Shown: one piece after another, positions 3,985 to 52,188 of the stretch
Layout of the letters: every line of letters starts with the position of its first letter
How positions within the stretch are numbered: position 1 is the first letter of the stretch
NCBI GenBank assembly: GCA_025061985.1
Contig: JANXAW010000026.1
Coordinates: forward strand, 1-64,000
Direction: 5' to 3'
DNA: 64,000 nt
From: Fimbriimonadales bacterium
GTDB taxonomy: Bacteria; Armatimonadota; Fimbriimonadia; Fimbriimonadales; GBS-DC
Translations under genes and position numbers: made by a program
The notes under the pieces: generated by a model
Seen by the model: only the letters and a program-made list of their open reading frames with translations
Databases searched by the model: none
What the model was told of the DNA's origin: nothing

Positions 3985-4029
3985 GCTCGGTGCGTGAACA
4001 CGCAGCGCTGGCGCCCTACCGGCGGCAAG

Positions 4030-4090
4030 CCCTTTGTCATTCCGAGCCGAAGGCGAGGAATCTCATACCCCTCGCTGCACTCGGGGTGAC
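4030..4090. repeat. palindromic intergenic repeat, copy 1
   Basis: ccctttgtcattccgagccgaaggcgaggaatc...ctcgctgcactcggggtgac; the leading 33 nt recur at 7210 with one mismatch; arms form an inverted repeat. Confidence 0.85.
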
Positions 4091-5063: not shown

Positions 5064-5084
5064 CTTGACAATTCCACACTCAAC
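5064..5084. promoter_or_regulatory. HAIR-like HspR operator CTTGACA-N7-ACTCAAC
   Basis: 11/14 match to HAIR consensus CTTGAGT-N7-ACTCAAG; overlaps -35. Confidence 0.55.
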
Positions 5085-5095
5085 TCAGGTATAAT
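5065..5095 (+). promoter_or_regulatory. sigma70-type promoter of dnaK (TTGACA-N19-TATAAT, GG before -10)
   Basis: ttgaca 5065-5070, ggtataat 5088-5095. Confidence 0.75.
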
Positions 5096-5198
5096 CACCT
5101 TACTCAACAAACGGGAACTTTCGGGTAGCAGCGGAAGTATCAATTCCTGCAGAAGTTGAGCGCACACGCCGAATATCCCTAGTGCGGAGGATGAAGCC

Positions 5199-7088
5199 AT
5201 GGGCAAGGTCGTAGGTATTGACTTGGGTACCACGAACTCGGTGGTTGCAGTACTGGAGGGTGGCGAACCCGTAGTCATTCCAACTGCGGAAGGCGGGCGT
5301 CTGTGCCCGTCCGTGGTGGGCTTTACAAAGACGGGCGAGCGACTGATCGGCGCCCCCGCAAAGCGCCAAGCCATCGTCAACCCCGAAAACACGATTTTCT
5401 CCATCAAGCGCTTCATCGGGCGTCGGTATGACGAAGTAGAAGAGGAGCGCAAGCGCGTGCCATACAAGGTCGTCGCCGACAGCAAGGGCGATGCTGCGGT
5501 CTACATCCCCGCAATCGACAAGACCCTTCGCCCCGAGGAAATCTCGGCGATGGTGCTGCAAAAGCTCAAAGCCGACGCCGAAGCCTACTTGGGCGAGAAG
5601 GTCGAGGCGGCAGTCATCACCGTGCCTGCCTACTTCAACGACGCGCAGCGCACCGCCACTAAGAACGCAGGTGAAATCGCGGGGCTGAAGGTGCTGCGCA
5701 TCATCAACGAGCCGACCGCTGCCGCCCTCGCCTACGGACTGGATAAGAAGAAGAACGAAGTCATCTTAGTGTTCGACCTCGGTGGGGGCACTTTCGACGT
5801 GTCGATTCTGGAAGTCGGCGACGGCGTGTTCGAGGTCAAGGCTACTGCAGGCGATACCCACCTCGGCGGCGATGACTTTGATCAGCGCATCGTCGACTAC
5901 CTCGCTGACGAGTTCAAGAAAGAGCACGGAATCGACCTGCGCCAAGACCGTCAGGCACTGCAACGCCTCAAGGAAGCTGCTGAGCGTGCCAAGATCGAGC
6001 TTTCCAGCGTGACCACCACCACGATCAACCTGCCGTTTATCACGGCAGACGCCAGCGGCCCGAAGCACCTGGATATGACGCTCACACGCGCGAAGTTCGA
6101 AGACCTCTGCGCCGACCTGTTTGAGCGGCTCAAGGGGCCCATCTTCCGCGCGCTGGAGGATGCGGGTCTTAAGCCCACAGATGTAGACGAGGTCATCTTG
6201 GTGGGCGGCTCTACGCGCATCCCCAAGGTGCAGGAGATGGTGCGCCAGATCACGGGCAAGGAGCCGCACAAGGGCGTCAACCCCGACGAAGTGGTGGCAA
6301 TCGGCGCTGCAATTCAAGCGGGTGTGCTGGCAGGCGAGGTCAAGGACATCGTGCTGCTGGACGTCACGCCACTCTCGCTGGGCATCGAGACCAAAGGCGG
6401 TATCTTCACCGTGCTTATCCCGCGCAACACTACCATCCCAACGCGCAAGAGCGAAATCTTCACAACCGCTGCCGATGGGCAGACCAGCGTAGAGGTGCGC
6501 GTCTACCAAGGCGAGCGACCAATGGCGCGCGACAACAAACTGCTCGGCGTGTTCCACCTCGACGGCATCCCACCCGCACCTGCTGGCGTGCCACAAATTG
6601 AGGTGACCTTCGACATCGACGCCAACGGCATCCTGCAGGTGTCGGCGAAGGACCTCGGCACGGGACGCGCGCAAAGCATTCGCATCACTGGCTCCACCAA
6701 CCTCACCCGCGAGGAAGTGGAGCGCATGATCAAAGAAGCTGAAGCGAACGCCGAGCGCGACCGCAAGCGCCGCGAGGAAGCCGAGCAACTCAACCGTGCC
6801 GAGCGCTTCGCCATCGAAACCGAACGCCTGCTCCGAGAGCACGGTGCCTCCGTCAACGCATCGGACCGCGAACGCGCCGAGTCGCTCATCCGCCAAATCC
6901 GCGAGGCAGTCCAGCAACAGAACGCCGAACGTGCTACGAGCCTCTTGAGCGAACTGGAGACCGTGACCTATCGCATCACCGAACAGCTCTATCGCGAGCG
7001 CACTGCAGGTGCAACCGCTGGCACCTCCACAACCACCAGCACCAGCGGCGACGACGTAATCGACGCCGAGTATCGCGAGGAGAAGTAA
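5199..7088 (+). CDS. dnaK: molecular chaperone DnaK (Hsp70)
   Basis: [51 protein letters not shown]-terminus. Confidence 0.98.
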
Positions 7089-7097
7089 TCCAAACCC

Positions 7098-7185
7098 ACG
7101 TAGCGTCGGCGAGACGCCAACGCTAGCCCAGCACGATGGCGTCTGCGCCATTACTTGGCGACGGCAACTTGCCGTCGTACTGCAG
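7098..7185. repeat. run of three consecutive hairpins downstream of dnaK
   Basis: AGCGTCGGCG-AGA-CGCCAACGCT; ATGGCG-TCTG-CGCCAT; GACGGCAA-C-TTGCCGTC. Confidence 0.6.
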
Positions 7186-7209
7186 CACTAGCATCTTGTT
7201 AGCGAACAA

Positions 7210-7270
7210 CCCTTTGTCGTTCCGAGCCGAAGGCGAGGAATCCGAGATTCCTCGCTACGCTCGGAATGAC
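7210..7270. repeat. palindromic intergenic repeat, copy 2
   Basis: ccctttgtcgttccgagccgaaggcgaggaatccgagattcctcgctacgctcggaatgac; arms near-complementary. Confidence 0.85.
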
Positions 7271-7341
7271 CCAGCACCCAAAATCCACCTATGATGATGT
7301 AGTGCCTGCGCCAAGCGCGCAGCGACAAGAGGTGAACACGC

Positions 7342-8424
7342 ATGCGCGGATTCAAAGACTACTATCAAATCTTGGGGGTACCGCGGAACGCCACCGAAAA
7401 AGAAATCAAGGCGGCGTACCGCAGGCTTGCGCGCAAGTACCACCCCGACGTAAACCCTGGCGACAAGCAGGCGGAGGAAAAGTTCAAAGAAATCAACGAA
7501 GCCTACCAGGTGCTATCAGACCCCGAAAAGCGCGCAGCCTACGACCGCTACGGCGAACAATGGCAGATGTATCAGCGCATGCGTGAGCAGTACGGCGAAA
7601 ACTTCCAGCCAAGCGACTTCCAAACCCCCTTTGGCTTTGGTGACTTTGAGGAGTTCATCCAAAACCTCCTGCGTGGCGCTGGCTTTGGGGGTGGCTTGCG
7701 CGTGCAGCGAACGCCACGCGATATTGAGCAAACCCTTGAAATCAGCATGCAGGAGGCAATTCGGGGCGCTACGCGCACAATCCAGATTGGCGTCGAAGAG
7801 CCGTGCCCCACTTGCAAGGGCACGGGCGTTGCCCCTGAGAGTCGACGCACTTGCCGCGTCTGCGGGGGCACAGGGCGCCGCCGCTTTGGAATGTTCGGAC
7901 TGGAGATGCACTGCGACGAGTGCGATGGCACAGGAGTCGTAGGGGCACCCTGCCCCACCTGCCGCGGCACAGGAGCCGTGATGCGCACACGCACCCTCAC
8001 CGTTACCATCCCCCCAGGCGTTGCCGAAGGGCAACGCCTACGCCTCGCAGGTGAAGGCGCAGTGGGCGCCGATGGGCGACGCGGTGACCTATACCTCCGC
8101 ATCAAAATCGCCCCCGACTCGCGCTTCGAACGCAAAGAAGACGACCTTTACACCGACGTGGACATTGACTACCTCACGGCGATTTTGGGGGGCGAGGTAG
8201 AAGTGCCCACACCCCACGGCACTGTCAAGATGAAAGTGCCTCCGGGCACCCAAAGTGGCACCCGCTTCCGCTTGGCAGGCAAAGGGCTGCCCCTCGGCAA
8301 GGGACAAATGGGTGACTTGTACGCACGTGCCCGAATCACTGTGCCTAAGTACCTCACTCCACGCGAACGCGAATTGCTGGAGCAGCTGCGACAACTGCGC
8401 GACCGACAGGAGGTGAAACCGTGA
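7342..8424 (+). CDS. dnaJ: chaperone DnaJ with four CxxCxGxG zinc motifs
   Basis: [67 protein letters not shown]. Confidence 0.95.
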
Positions 8425-8819
8425 AACAAGACAAGAACCGACCGTCGGATGAGCCAGTTTATCTTATCAGCGTTGCGGCGCGAATGTGCGGATTGCACCC
8501 GCAAACGCTGCGCCTCTACGAACGGCTGGGGCTAATCCAACCCCACCGCGTAGGCAACAGTAAGCGCCTCTACTCAGAGGCGGATATCGCACGCCTGCGC
8601 CTTATCCAGCGCCTCACCCAGCAACTGGGAGTCAATCTCGCTGGAGTAGACATCATCTTGCGACTTTTAGATCGCATTGAGCAAATGAACCGCGAGATTG
8701 CTGAACTGGTAGCGCAAACCAACATGCGCATCCTGCAACTTATCCACGAGCACAACCTGCCTGTAGACCCACAATCGCTGCTCATCCGCTTCGAACGCCA
8801 TGAGGAAGACCTTGACTGA
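8421..8819 (+). CDS. hspR: MerR-family heat-shock repressor HspR
   Basis: [44 protein letters not shown]...[18 protein letters not shown]-type overlap with dnaJ. Confidence 0.88.
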
Positions 8820-36027: not shown

Positions 36028-37089
36028 GTGCCACGCCGCGCGGCTACAGATCCAAACGTGTTGGATGCGCGCAAGGCAGCGATTTTGCGCGCGGTAACGC
36101 GCGAGCATATCCGCACGGGTGAACCCGTTGGCTCGCAGGCGATTGTGCAACGCTACGCGCTGGGTATCAAGCCCGCCACAGTGCGCAACGAGATGGCGGT
36201 GATGACGGAATATGGCTATCTGCTTCAGCCGCATACCAGCGCGGGGCGTGTGCCGACCACGCGCGGCTATCGCTACTACGTAGAACACCTAATCGGTGGC
36301 GTTCCAAGGCTGCGCATTGAAAGCTACCTCAAGCAGCTGCCCGAACCTGGCGAGAGCCTTGAAGAGACATTAGAAGCTACGCTGCAAATCTTAGCACGCG
36401 CTGCCCGCTACATTGCCTTCGCCGCCACGGCGCGCGATGAAACGATCCGTGTGCTACGCTACGTGCTAACCCCTTGTGGCGCGCGGCGCGTGCTCTCGGT
36501 GGTGATTTTAGAACATGGCGCGGTCGATAACCGTTTGGTAGAGCTGGGCTATGCGCCTTCTCAGCGCGCCCTCAACCGTATCCAGGGCGTGCTCGCCTCG
36601 CTGATTGAGGGGCAAACCGTGCGCGCCGTGCTGCAGTTAGACCCAAACCAACCCCCCGCTATGGAGTCGCCAGAGGAGCGCGAGGCAATTGCAACGCTAT
36701 TGCGCACAGCCCAACATCAACTTCAGGAGGCAACTGAGGGCGAACTACTTTATGCAGGCACGGTGTACATGCTCCACCAGCCTGAGTTTCAGCGTGAGGT
36801 GTACCAGCTGGAGGCGGTCTTGCGCGTGCTGGAAGAGCGTAAGTCGCTCTACCGCCTGCTTCGAAAGCACGGCGAAGCAGATGTGCAACTCACTATTGGC
36901 GAGGAGAACCCGATAGAGGCGTTGCGCTGCTGCACGCTGATTAGCGCGCGCTACTATGTGGGTACGCGCCCTGCGGGAGTGATTGGGCTAATGGGACCCG
37001 TGCGCATGGACTATGACCACGCCCTGCCTACCGTTCGTCGCACGGCGCAGGCACTAAGCGACTTGCTCACACGCACCCTGCTTTCGTAG
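36028..37089 (+). CDS. hrcA: heat-inducible transcriptional repressor HrcA
   Basis: LDARKAAILRAVTREHIRTGEPVGSQAIVQRYALGIKPATVRNEMAVMTEYGYLLQPHTSAGRVPTTRGYRYYVE; GTG start. Confidence 0.95.
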   Translation: MPRRAATDPNVLDARKAAILRAVTREHIRTGEPVGSQAIVQRYALGIKPATVRNEMAVMTEYGYLLQPHTSAGRVPTTRGYRYYVEHLIGGVPRLRIESYLKQLPEPGESLEETLEATLQILARAARYIAFAATARDETIRVLRYVLTPCGARRVLSVVILEHGAVDNRLVELGYAPSQRALNRIQGVLASLIEGQTVRAVLQLDPNQPPAMESPEEREAIATLLRTAQHQLQEATEGELLYAGTVYMLHQPEFQREVYQLEAVLRVLEERKSLYRLLRKHGEADVQLTIGEENPIEALRCCTLISARYYVGTRPAGVIGLMGPVRMDYDHALPTVRRTAQALSDLLTRTLLS

Positions 37090-49473: not shown

Positions 49474-52188
49474 ATGGCACGGATAGCACTATTGGTTGCA
49501 GGGATGGCGATCGTGGCACAGCTGGCGTTTAGTCAACACCCGCGTCCTGACTTTGAGCGCACCCTTTGGCAGTCGCTGAACGGCACTTGGGAGTTCCAGT
49601 TTGACCCTCAGAACATAGGCATTCAGCAGAACTGGCAGAGTTTGCCCAAGCCCTACGAGCGTACAATCCGCGTGCCCTTCGCGTGGGAAAGCAAGCTTAG
49701 CGGAATCGGCGATACGATGTTTAAGGGCGTTGCGTGGTATCGCCGTGAGTTCAGCCTACCCGAAAAGTGGCGCGGCAAACGGATTTGGCTCTGCTTCGGC
49801 GCCGTGGACCACCACGCCACTGTGTGGATCAATGGCGAGCGCGTGGGTGAGCACGAAGGCGGCTACTCCGAGTTCCGTTTTGACATTACCCCTTATGTGC
49901 GCTTTGACCGACCGAACACGGTAGTGGTGCGCGTGGAAGACCATACTGACCGCTCCACCCCCTTAGGCAAGCAAACGCCTGAGTGGTACACCAGCGTAAG
50001 CGGCATCTGGCAAAGCGTGTGGCTGGAAGCTACAGGCGCCGCAGCAATCCAGCGCTTCCGAATCATCCCTCTTGCGAATGAAGCGGGCGTGCCCACAGGT
50101 GTGATAGAGTTCATCGTGGAAATAGACCGTGCCCAACAGCACGAGCCGCTCCAGTTGGAGCTGCGCTCACGCAACCGTCTCTTCCCAACGCGGCGCTTCG
50201 GCATCTTAGAAGGCGAAACCTCCAAAACTTTCCGCTTGGTGCTGGAAAACCCGCGCCTCTGGACGCCCGAGAATCCGCACCTATACCCCTTCGAGCTGCG
50301 TCTGCTCTCAAAGGACGGTAAGCGCTTGCAGGATGCCGTGCGGGGCTATTTCGGCGTGCGCACAGTACGCTGGGGCACCTACAAAGGCTCTGAGTTCAGC
50401 TACGTGCTGCTCAACGGCAAACCGATTTACTTGCGTGGCGTATTAGACCAATCCTATAACCCTGACGGGCTGTACACTGCCCCTGATGATGCGTTCCTCA
50501 AGCGCGATATTCTGCTTGCAAAGCAAGCGGGCTTCAACATGCTGCGCATCCACATCAAAGCCGACGAGCCACGCAAACTCTACTGGGCAGATAAACTGGG
50601 CATTTTGGTGCAAGCAGACATCCCCTGTTTCTATGTGCCTTCCGAGCGCGCCCGAACCCTGTTTGAAAAAACCCTGCGCGACCAAATTTTGCGCGATTTC
50701 AACCATCCTTGCATTATCGCGTGGACTATCTTCAACGAAGAGTGGGGCATCGGCGCGCTTAGCCCTGAAAACCGCGCCCATCGCGTGGAATGGGTGCTGC
50801 AGATGGTACGCCTTGCGCGTAGCTTAGACCCAACCCGCCTCGTTCACGACAACTCAGGTTGGGCACACCTGGAGACAGACCTCAACTCGTTCCACTGGTA
50901 CGGGCGGAATGTTGACCTGTTTCGCCAGCAGTACCAGACAGTGAACCGCCAAGAAGTAGGCAAAGACAAGACTTGGAACTATATCGACGGGCGGCGCAGC
51001 CGTGGAGAGCCATTCGTCAATAACGAGTTTGGCTACGTCGCCGCTTTCGACGGCGATGGTGACTGGTCGTGGGGCGGGCTGGCATTGCTCAACACCCTGC
51101 GCAGCTTAGATAAGCTGGTGGGTTACACCTACACAGAACTCACCGATATCGAGTGGGAACACAATGGCGTTTACAACTATGACCGCAGCCCCAAAGAGTA
51201 CGGCTTCGATTTTTGGGCGCCGGGGATGAGTTTACGCGACCTGTTCGCAGAAGACTTTCTGGTGTTGGACGTGCCCGCTATCAAGCGCGCCACGCGGGGC
51301 GAAGTAGCGCAAGTACCAATCTTGTTTAGCCACTACTCAGGGCGCTTCGCAGAGAGACCTTTTACGCTCTTCTATCGGCTGGACTACATTGACGCGTTGG
51401 GCAACCGCCACCGAGGGCGAGTTCATCGACAGGTTTTCGCGCGTACACCTGCTTATCAACTGGTGCCCCTAACGATTGCAGTAGTGCGACTACCCAACGA
51501 GCCGTGTTTAGCGACGCTGGTGGTGTGGGCAGAGGATTGGGAGCGGCGGCGCGTGCACATCAACTACACGCAGTGGCTGGTGGACATTGAATCGTTGCCG
51601 AAGGTGGAAATCAAGCGAGGGCAGGTCATCTTACGCTTTGCGCCTACCGAATACACTGTTAGTGAGTTTAGCGTGCAAAGCAAGCCAGACCGCCCCTTGC
51701 AAGGCAAGCATTGGGCACGCGGGCACGGCTGTGTGGAATATGCTCTCACGATCCCCCAAGGCATATCCATTGCGGACATTCGGCGCATTCGCTTGCGGAT
51801 GGAGGTCGGGGCACGCGCAGGACGCGAGAAAGTAGACTGGGCACAACGCATTCATCCTGAAGACTACCCGCAAACCGACGGCAAGAAGTATCCTTCGCGC
51901 GTGCTGGTAGAAATCGCAGGTGAGCGCGCTGCCACGTGGGAGCTGCCCGACGACCCCGCCGACGCACGTGGTGTGCTATCGCATTGGGCAGGGATTGAAC
52001 GCGGCTCCTACGGCTACTTGCGCGAGGCAGTGCTAAAGATGAATCCCGTTATCCGCGCCCGCATTCAGCAAGAGCGTAAACTAACTATCCGACTCATTGT
52101 GCCTCCCGACCTGCCAGGTGGTATCGCCATCTACGGCGCCACAATGGGCTGCTACCCTTTGGAGCCGACGGTGATCCTTGAACTCTAG
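49474..52188 (+). CDS. secreted glycoside hydrolase family 2
   Basis: LNGTWEFQFDP, VPFAWES, WYRREFSLPEKW, LRGVLDQSYNPDGLYTAP, ILRDFNHPCIIAWTIFNEEWG. Confidence 0.92.
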   Translation: MARIALLVAGMAIVAQLAFSQHPRPDFERTLWQSLNGTWEFQFDPQNIGIQQNWQSLPKPYERTIRVPFAWESKLSGIGDTMFKGVAWYRREFSLPEKWRGKRIWLCFGAVDHHATVWINGERVGEHEGGYSEFRFDITPYVRFDRPNTVVVRVEDHTDRSTPLGKQTPEWYTSVSGIWQSVWLEATGAAAIQRFRIIPLANEAGVPTGVIEFIVEIDRAQQHEPLQLELRSRNRLFPTRRFGILEGETSKTFRLVLENPRLWTPENPHLYPFELRLLSKDGKRLQDAVRGYFGVRTVRWGTYKGSEFSYVLLNGKPIYLRGVLDQSYNPDGLYTAPDDAFLKRDILLAKQAGFNMLRIHIKADEPRKLYWADKLGILVQADIPCFYVPSERARTLFEKTLRDQILRDFNHPCIIAWTIFNEEWGIGALSPENRAHRVEWVLQMVRLARSLDPTRLVHDNSGWAHLETDLNSFHWYGRNVDLFRQQYQTVNRQEVGKDKTWNYIDGRRSRGEPFVNNEFGYVAAFDGDGDWSWGGLALLNTLRSLDKLVGYTYTELTDIEWEHNGVYNYDRSPKEYGFDFWAPGMSLRDLFAEDFLVLDVPAIKRATRGEVAQVPILFSHYSGRFAERPFTLFYRLDYIDALGNRHRGRVHRQVFARTPAYQLVPLTIAVVRLPNEPCLATLVVWAEDWERRRVHINYTQWLVDIESLPKVEIKRGQVILRFAPTEYTVSEFSVQSKPDRPLQGKHWARGHGCVEYALTIPQGISIADIRRIRLRMEVGARAGREKVDWAQRIHPEDYPQTDGKKYPSRVLVEIAGERAATWELPDDPADARGVLSHWAGIERGSYGYLREAVLKMNPVIRARIQQERKLTIRLIVPPDLPGGIAIYGATMGCYPLEPTVILEL

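Follow-up and report, generated by a model that had tools for sequence, protein, structure and literature searches.

The dnaK-dnaJ-hspR locus

The window, i.e., the whole 64-kb stretch of DNA analyzed here, carries a dnaK-dnaJ-hspR gene run whose upstream region contains a candidate HspR operator and two predicted promoters, P1 and P2. Families of the order (Fimbriimonadales, phylum Armatimonadota), to which the genome of the window belongs by type, are labelled f1 (the own family) and f2-f5. The features considered are the following:

5064-5084, + strand: HAIR-like candidate HspR operator, CTTGACA-N7-ACTCAAC, from the sequence and its conservation at dnaK (f1 consensus CTTGACAATAccnCACTCAAG)
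5065-5070, + strand: predicted -35 box of P1, TTGACA, inside the left half of the operator (TTGA(C/T)A in 14/14 f1 promoters)
5090-5095, + strand: predicted -10 box of P1, TATAAT, 19 bp after the -35 box (conserved at N19 in f1)
5102-5108, + strand: ACTCAAC, a third HAIR half-site-like element between P1 and P2, from the oriented upstream regions
5113-5118, + strand: putative ECF-type -35 element of P2, GGGAAC (GGAAC at 5114-5118), from the motif GGAAC-N15-18-NGTW of f1 dnaK promoters
5136-5139, + strand: putative ECF-type -10 element of P2, AGTA, N17 after GGAAC, from the sequence and motif comparison
5199-7088, + strand: dnaK (NCBIfam TIGR02350, 969.6 bits against a cut-off of 822.55)
7342-8424, + strand: dnaJ (NCBIfam NF008035, 358.8 bits against 338; TIGR02349 reaches 377.0, just under its cut-off of 377.2)
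8421-8819, + strand: hspR, MerR-family heat-shock repressor (NCBIfam equivalog NF047375, 113.5 bits against a cut-off of 105)
36028-37089: hrcA

The first-pass annotation had placed hspR in the dnaK gene run, and the match at equivalog level, on the same strand as dnaK and dnaJ, bears this out. The next gene of the run, tsaE, overlaps hspR. Orthologues of hspR within the genus are 87-91% identical, including those of the Fimbriimonadales/Armatimonadetes metagenome-assembled genomes KatS3mg016 and KatS3mg018, and the spacing between dnaK and hspR is unchanged in the family relatives.

The dnaK and dnaJ genes are separated by a gap of 250 bp, and a weak promoter-like site (9/12), of a quality no more frequent than chance expects, is found just upstream of dnaJ at 7266-7295. 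Given the gap and this site, the dnaK promoter may not be the main source of hspR transcripts, and the transcription of dnaJ-hspR might be separate from that of dnaK. The same gap holds one copy of a REP-like 89-nt repeat with a palindromic-looking core, whose two copies (4002-4090 and 7182-7270) are 74% identical.

The candidate operator and the P1 promoter

The sequence at 5064-5084 reads CTTGACA ATTCCAC ACTCAAC and matches HAIR (CTTGAGT-N7-ACTCAAG) at 11 of 14 positions with the N7 spacing, exactly as previously described for this site. Taken alone, such a match is weak and at chance level, and it is its position and its conservation that give it significance. With up to 3 mismatches, HAIR is found twice in the window against 1.93 matches expected from shuffles, and the second match, at 51321, was discarded as a chance-level hit. 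In the own genome (a 1.35-Mb assembly, 66% complete) there is likewise no excess, since HAIR with 3 mismatches occurs 37 times and a reversed control pattern 56 times; genome-wide matches of this quality are uninformative. The right half of the operator ends in C in the window, and the last G of HAIR is kept in 93% of the f1 dnaK sites; a terminal C is also frequent at the clpB sites and in the actinobacterial control. The additional ACTCAAC element, located 24 bp after the right half of the operator, is kept as (A/G)CTCA in most of f1. A CIRCE element was not found at dnaK (best score 10/18), and the predicted RNA structure of the dnaK leader was no better than that of shuffled sequences (z 0.27).

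The left half of the operator overlaps a TTGACA-N19-TATAAT promoter, as had been claimed, with its hexamers at 5065-5070 and 5090-5095. The unusual spacing is a property of the whole group: in the 14 f1 promoters the mean match to TATAAT is 5.5/6 at N19, any other spacing between 14 and 23 giving no more than about 3, and N19 is again the best spacing, with 3.5/6, in ten other promoters with CTTGAYA. It could be thought that CTTGACA differs from CTTGAGT purely through the constraint imposed by the -35 box, and this explanation was dropped because CTTGAYA is also found at clpB, where it is not part of a -35 box. For the same reason, the left half probably deviates from CTTGAGT as a variant that the lineage tolerates, and not solely as a compromise with the -35 box.

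A spacer of 19 bp is typical of MerR-activated promoters, and HspR belongs to the MerR family, which raises the possibility that HspR acts on the over-long spacer of P1 as a topological switch of the MerR type, both repressing and activating through an operator with unequal halves (CTTGAYA on the left, ACTCAAG on the right), rather than as a plain -35 blocker. The clear preference for N19 in both sets of promoters speaks for this reading. Operators of MerR and CueR sit near the middle of the spacer, whereas here the dyad centre (5074) falls only 4 nt into the spacer and the operator covers the -35 box instead of being centred between the -35 and -10 boxes. Moreover, the papers cited below describe HspR as a repressor. 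We consider this switch very unlikely and favour a repressor that would cover the -35 box of P1.

Conservation of the operator at dnaK promoters across the order

The conservation of the operator was analyzed in 57 promoters from 56 genomes of the order, taking the 600 bp that precede dnaK and scoring HAIR within 200 bp of the start codon. A HAIR-like site of at least 10/14 was present in 57/57 promoters, from five families, compared with 6.3% of dinucleotide shuffles, and a site of at least 11/14 was present in 49/57, compared with 0.9% of such shuffles. The scores were 14 in 4 promoters, 13 in 6, 12 in 25, 11 in 14, and 10 in 8, a score of 12 being reached by 0.14% of the dinucleotide shuffles. 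The same script applied to the dnaK of Nonomuraea (Actinomycetota) as a positive control returned two HAIR-like sites of 12/14. Conservation of the half-sites in relatives had been set out from the beginning as a test that could refute the operator, and the half-sites are kept across the five families. Farther upstream of the operator the DNA looks unrelated between members of the genus, suggesting that the operator block is under selection. One genome (G008, contigs L198 and L143) has two dnaK copies with similar promoters, reflecting either a mixture of strains or a genuine duplication.

Given a left half that includes TTGACA, the strong conservation of TATAAT at N19, and a single-copy match to HAIR at chance level, the conserved block could be just a core promoter, with both hexamers kept by sigma-A and a coincidental likeness to HAIR. 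Nevertheless, the right half belongs to neither hexamer but to the spacer between them, and it hardly varies, its core CTCAA being conserved in 100% of the f1 dnaK promoters, whose left half reads CTTGA(C/T)A. In f3 (Fimbriimonadaceae-like) the dnaK site is found at 34-86 bp from the start codon, in many cases as the canonical CTTGAGT-N7-ACTCAAG, up to 14/14, and at clpB and hsp20 the site is found outside a -35 box. A core promoter without an operator is thus highly improbable, and the block is better read as a predicted HspR operator superimposed on P1.

A putative second promoter of the ECF type

Downstream of P1 there is a putative second promoter, P2 (GGGAAC-N17-AGTA, 5113-5139), which was overlooked in the first reading of the sequence. 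Every f1 dnaK gene has, downstream of P1, a GGGAAC (AGGAAC in one case) followed after about 17 bases by NGTA or NGTT. The motif GGAAC-N15-18-NGTW occurs in 14/14 dnaK, 13/13 clpB, and 15/15 hsp20 promoters of f1, and in 20/43 dnaK promoters outside f1, against a background of 1.9% in shuffles and 1.8% in real 200-bp windows. The N17 spacing is also found at clpB, in nearly all hsp20 copies, and at an ECF sigma gene described below. The strict CGTW form is present in 4/14 of the f1 dnaK copies, and the AGTA of the window departs from it; all 15 hsp20 copies and the ECF gene have CGTA.

Among the 22 loci encoding ECF-type sigma factors that were inspected in the genomes of three members of the genus, the motif appears directly upstream of one orthologous gene only (3 loci), in the form GGAAC-N17-CGTA, 10-12 bp before the start codon (G000:C22, L312:1067-1092). 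This gene (L312:1105-1716) is followed by one encoding a zf-HC2 zinc-finger protein (pair at L312:1105-2339, G000:C22), which is a typical anti-sigma arrangement. Being the sole orthologue among the 22 loci with the motif, and having the zf-HC2 gene next to it, it is the best candidate to encode the sigma factor of P2. The distribution of the motif suggests a likely stress-sigma regulon that would include dnaK, clpB, and hsp20.

Other predicted targets of HspR and the HrcA/CIRCE branch

A search for HAIR elsewhere had been proposed for clpB and grpE, and only the first expectation was borne out. In f1, all complete clpB genes (13/13) have CTTGAYA-N7-(A/G)CT(C/A)AA starting 32-35 bp before the ATG, and no HAIR-like site was found at the f1 grpE or groES loci. 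For 15/16 f1 hsp20 genes, the search also revealed a HAIR-like site that starts 52-67 bp ahead of the gene, several of them with a perfect HAIR, and the best HAIR match of the own genome (13/14) is located just upstream of an hsp20 gene. The clpB operator sits downstream of a -10-like GGTATTATA element and beside the ribosome-binding site, and the hsp20 operator begins directly after the ECF-type -10 element. Together with the placement over the -35 box at dnaK, all three positions would block either initiation or promoter clearance.

The weaker MerR-type gene found elsewhere (G000:C8:7426), together with a left half, CTTGAYA, that differs from the consensus HAIR, might point to a binder other than the HspR of this operon, and we regard it as very improbable, given that no other gene of the own genome matches HspR strongly, that motif, targets (dnaK, clpB, and hsp20), and operon context all fit HspR, and that canonical HAIR is present at hsp20 and in f3.

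The groES loci have a CIRCE element matching 15-18 of 18 positions in 18/20 cases, and hrcA is encoded in the window. The heat-shock genes of actinobacteria show a division resembling the one found here, with HspR for dnaK, clpB, and the small Hsp, and HrcA for groE.

The hsp20 leader in G000:C11 (L001:1461-1521, reverse strand) has an almost invariant HAIR spacer, GGAAGGC, matched by a downstream CCTTCC that in the predicted fold also pairs with the ribosome-binding site (z -1.55). No compensatory changes were seen in this pairing. The region could act as a leader resembling an RNA thermometer, or it could contain a second operator.

Proposed regulatory circuit and comparison with known systems

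Taking these observations together, we consider it highly probable that a predicted HspR operator acts on P1, clpB, and hsp20, alongside a putative ECF-type P2 and with HrcA/CIRCE acting on groESL. HspR, the product of the third gene in the dnaK-dnaJ-hspR run, would bind 5064-5084, covering the -35 box and repressing P1, and hspR would be autoregulated via P1. Repression would presumably be relieved when unfolded protein titrates DnaK, acting as the co-repressor. The same HspR would control clpB and hsp20, the ECF sigma with its zinc-finger anti-sigma partner would probably drive P2 and the corresponding motif copies of clpB and hsp20, and HrcA/CIRCE would control groESL. We infer the binding of HspR and of the ECF sigma, repression and derepression, the DnaK co-repressor step, and co-transcription from the sequence, its conservation, motif co-occurrence, and the presence of the genes. 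The HspR-HAIR control of dnaK suggested in the first-pass annotation gains support at this level, as the half-sites are conserved and the motif also appears at the expected targets clpB and hsp20.

That annotation regarded HspR-HAIR control as established in Actinobacteria, which is correct for that group and too narrow as a limit, because it is also established in Helicobacter pylori (PMC6102357), Deinococcus (PMC6888292), and Campylobacter jejuni (PMC7464140). In Streptomyces, HspR/HAIR has been reported at dnaK and clpB (Bucca 1995; Grandvalet 1999; both as cited in PMC6102357). The repeat, the N7 spacing, and the targets dnaK and clpB are the same, whereas the dnaK of S. coelicolor has three HAIR copies and here there is one, with CTTGAYA as its left half and no grpE in the dnaK-dnaJ-hspR run. 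In H. pylori a HAIR-like repeat is essential for HspR binding and repression (PMC6102357). Its Pcbp promoter resembles our case in having such a repeat at a repressed heat-shock promoter, but it differs in its extended binding region of 70-80 bp and in its cbpA promoter context (PMC6102357); here hspR follows dnaK-dnaJ.

A close parallel for the two promoters is Corynebacterium glutamicum, whose dnaK has conserved HAIR boxes and two promoters, a sigma-A P1 and a sigma-H/sigma-E P2 with GGAACA-N16-CGTT (PMC3917453, PMC10012870). Both systems pair a sigma-A-type promoter with a second one of ECF type, which in our case is putative and resembles the motif GGAAC-N16/17-CGTT, and both have HAIR at the promoter. 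In C. glutamicum, a member of a different phylum, P1 and P2 overlap, whereas in f1 some 50 bp separate P1 and the operator from the downstream P2, and the window has AGTA as its P2 -10 element. In Deinococcus radiodurans, also from a different phylum, HspR/HAIR operates together with Sig1 (PMC6888292), so that outside Actinobacteria, too, chaperone genes are under both a repressor and an alternative sigma factor. The two-layer control of dnaK in Corynebacterium and the comparable pairing in Deinococcus suggest that the circuit may be ancient or may have been put together more than once.

A literature search for HspR and Armatimonadetes returned no report of HspR in that phylum, although papers outside the searched library may exist. 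The site at dnaK is very probably a real operator, representing a known mechanism in a new phylum, and the putative ECF-type P2 is the main addition. Judging from the sequence comparisons, the control circuit elucidated in Actinobacteria appears to be at work in a remote phylum that has hardly been studied. This would extend HspR/HAIR and its paired ECF-sigma promoter to Armatimonadota, where there are almost no experimental data on regulation. The predicted operators at dnaK, clpB, and hsp20 constitute a ready set of natural half-site variants for specificity tests of HspR.
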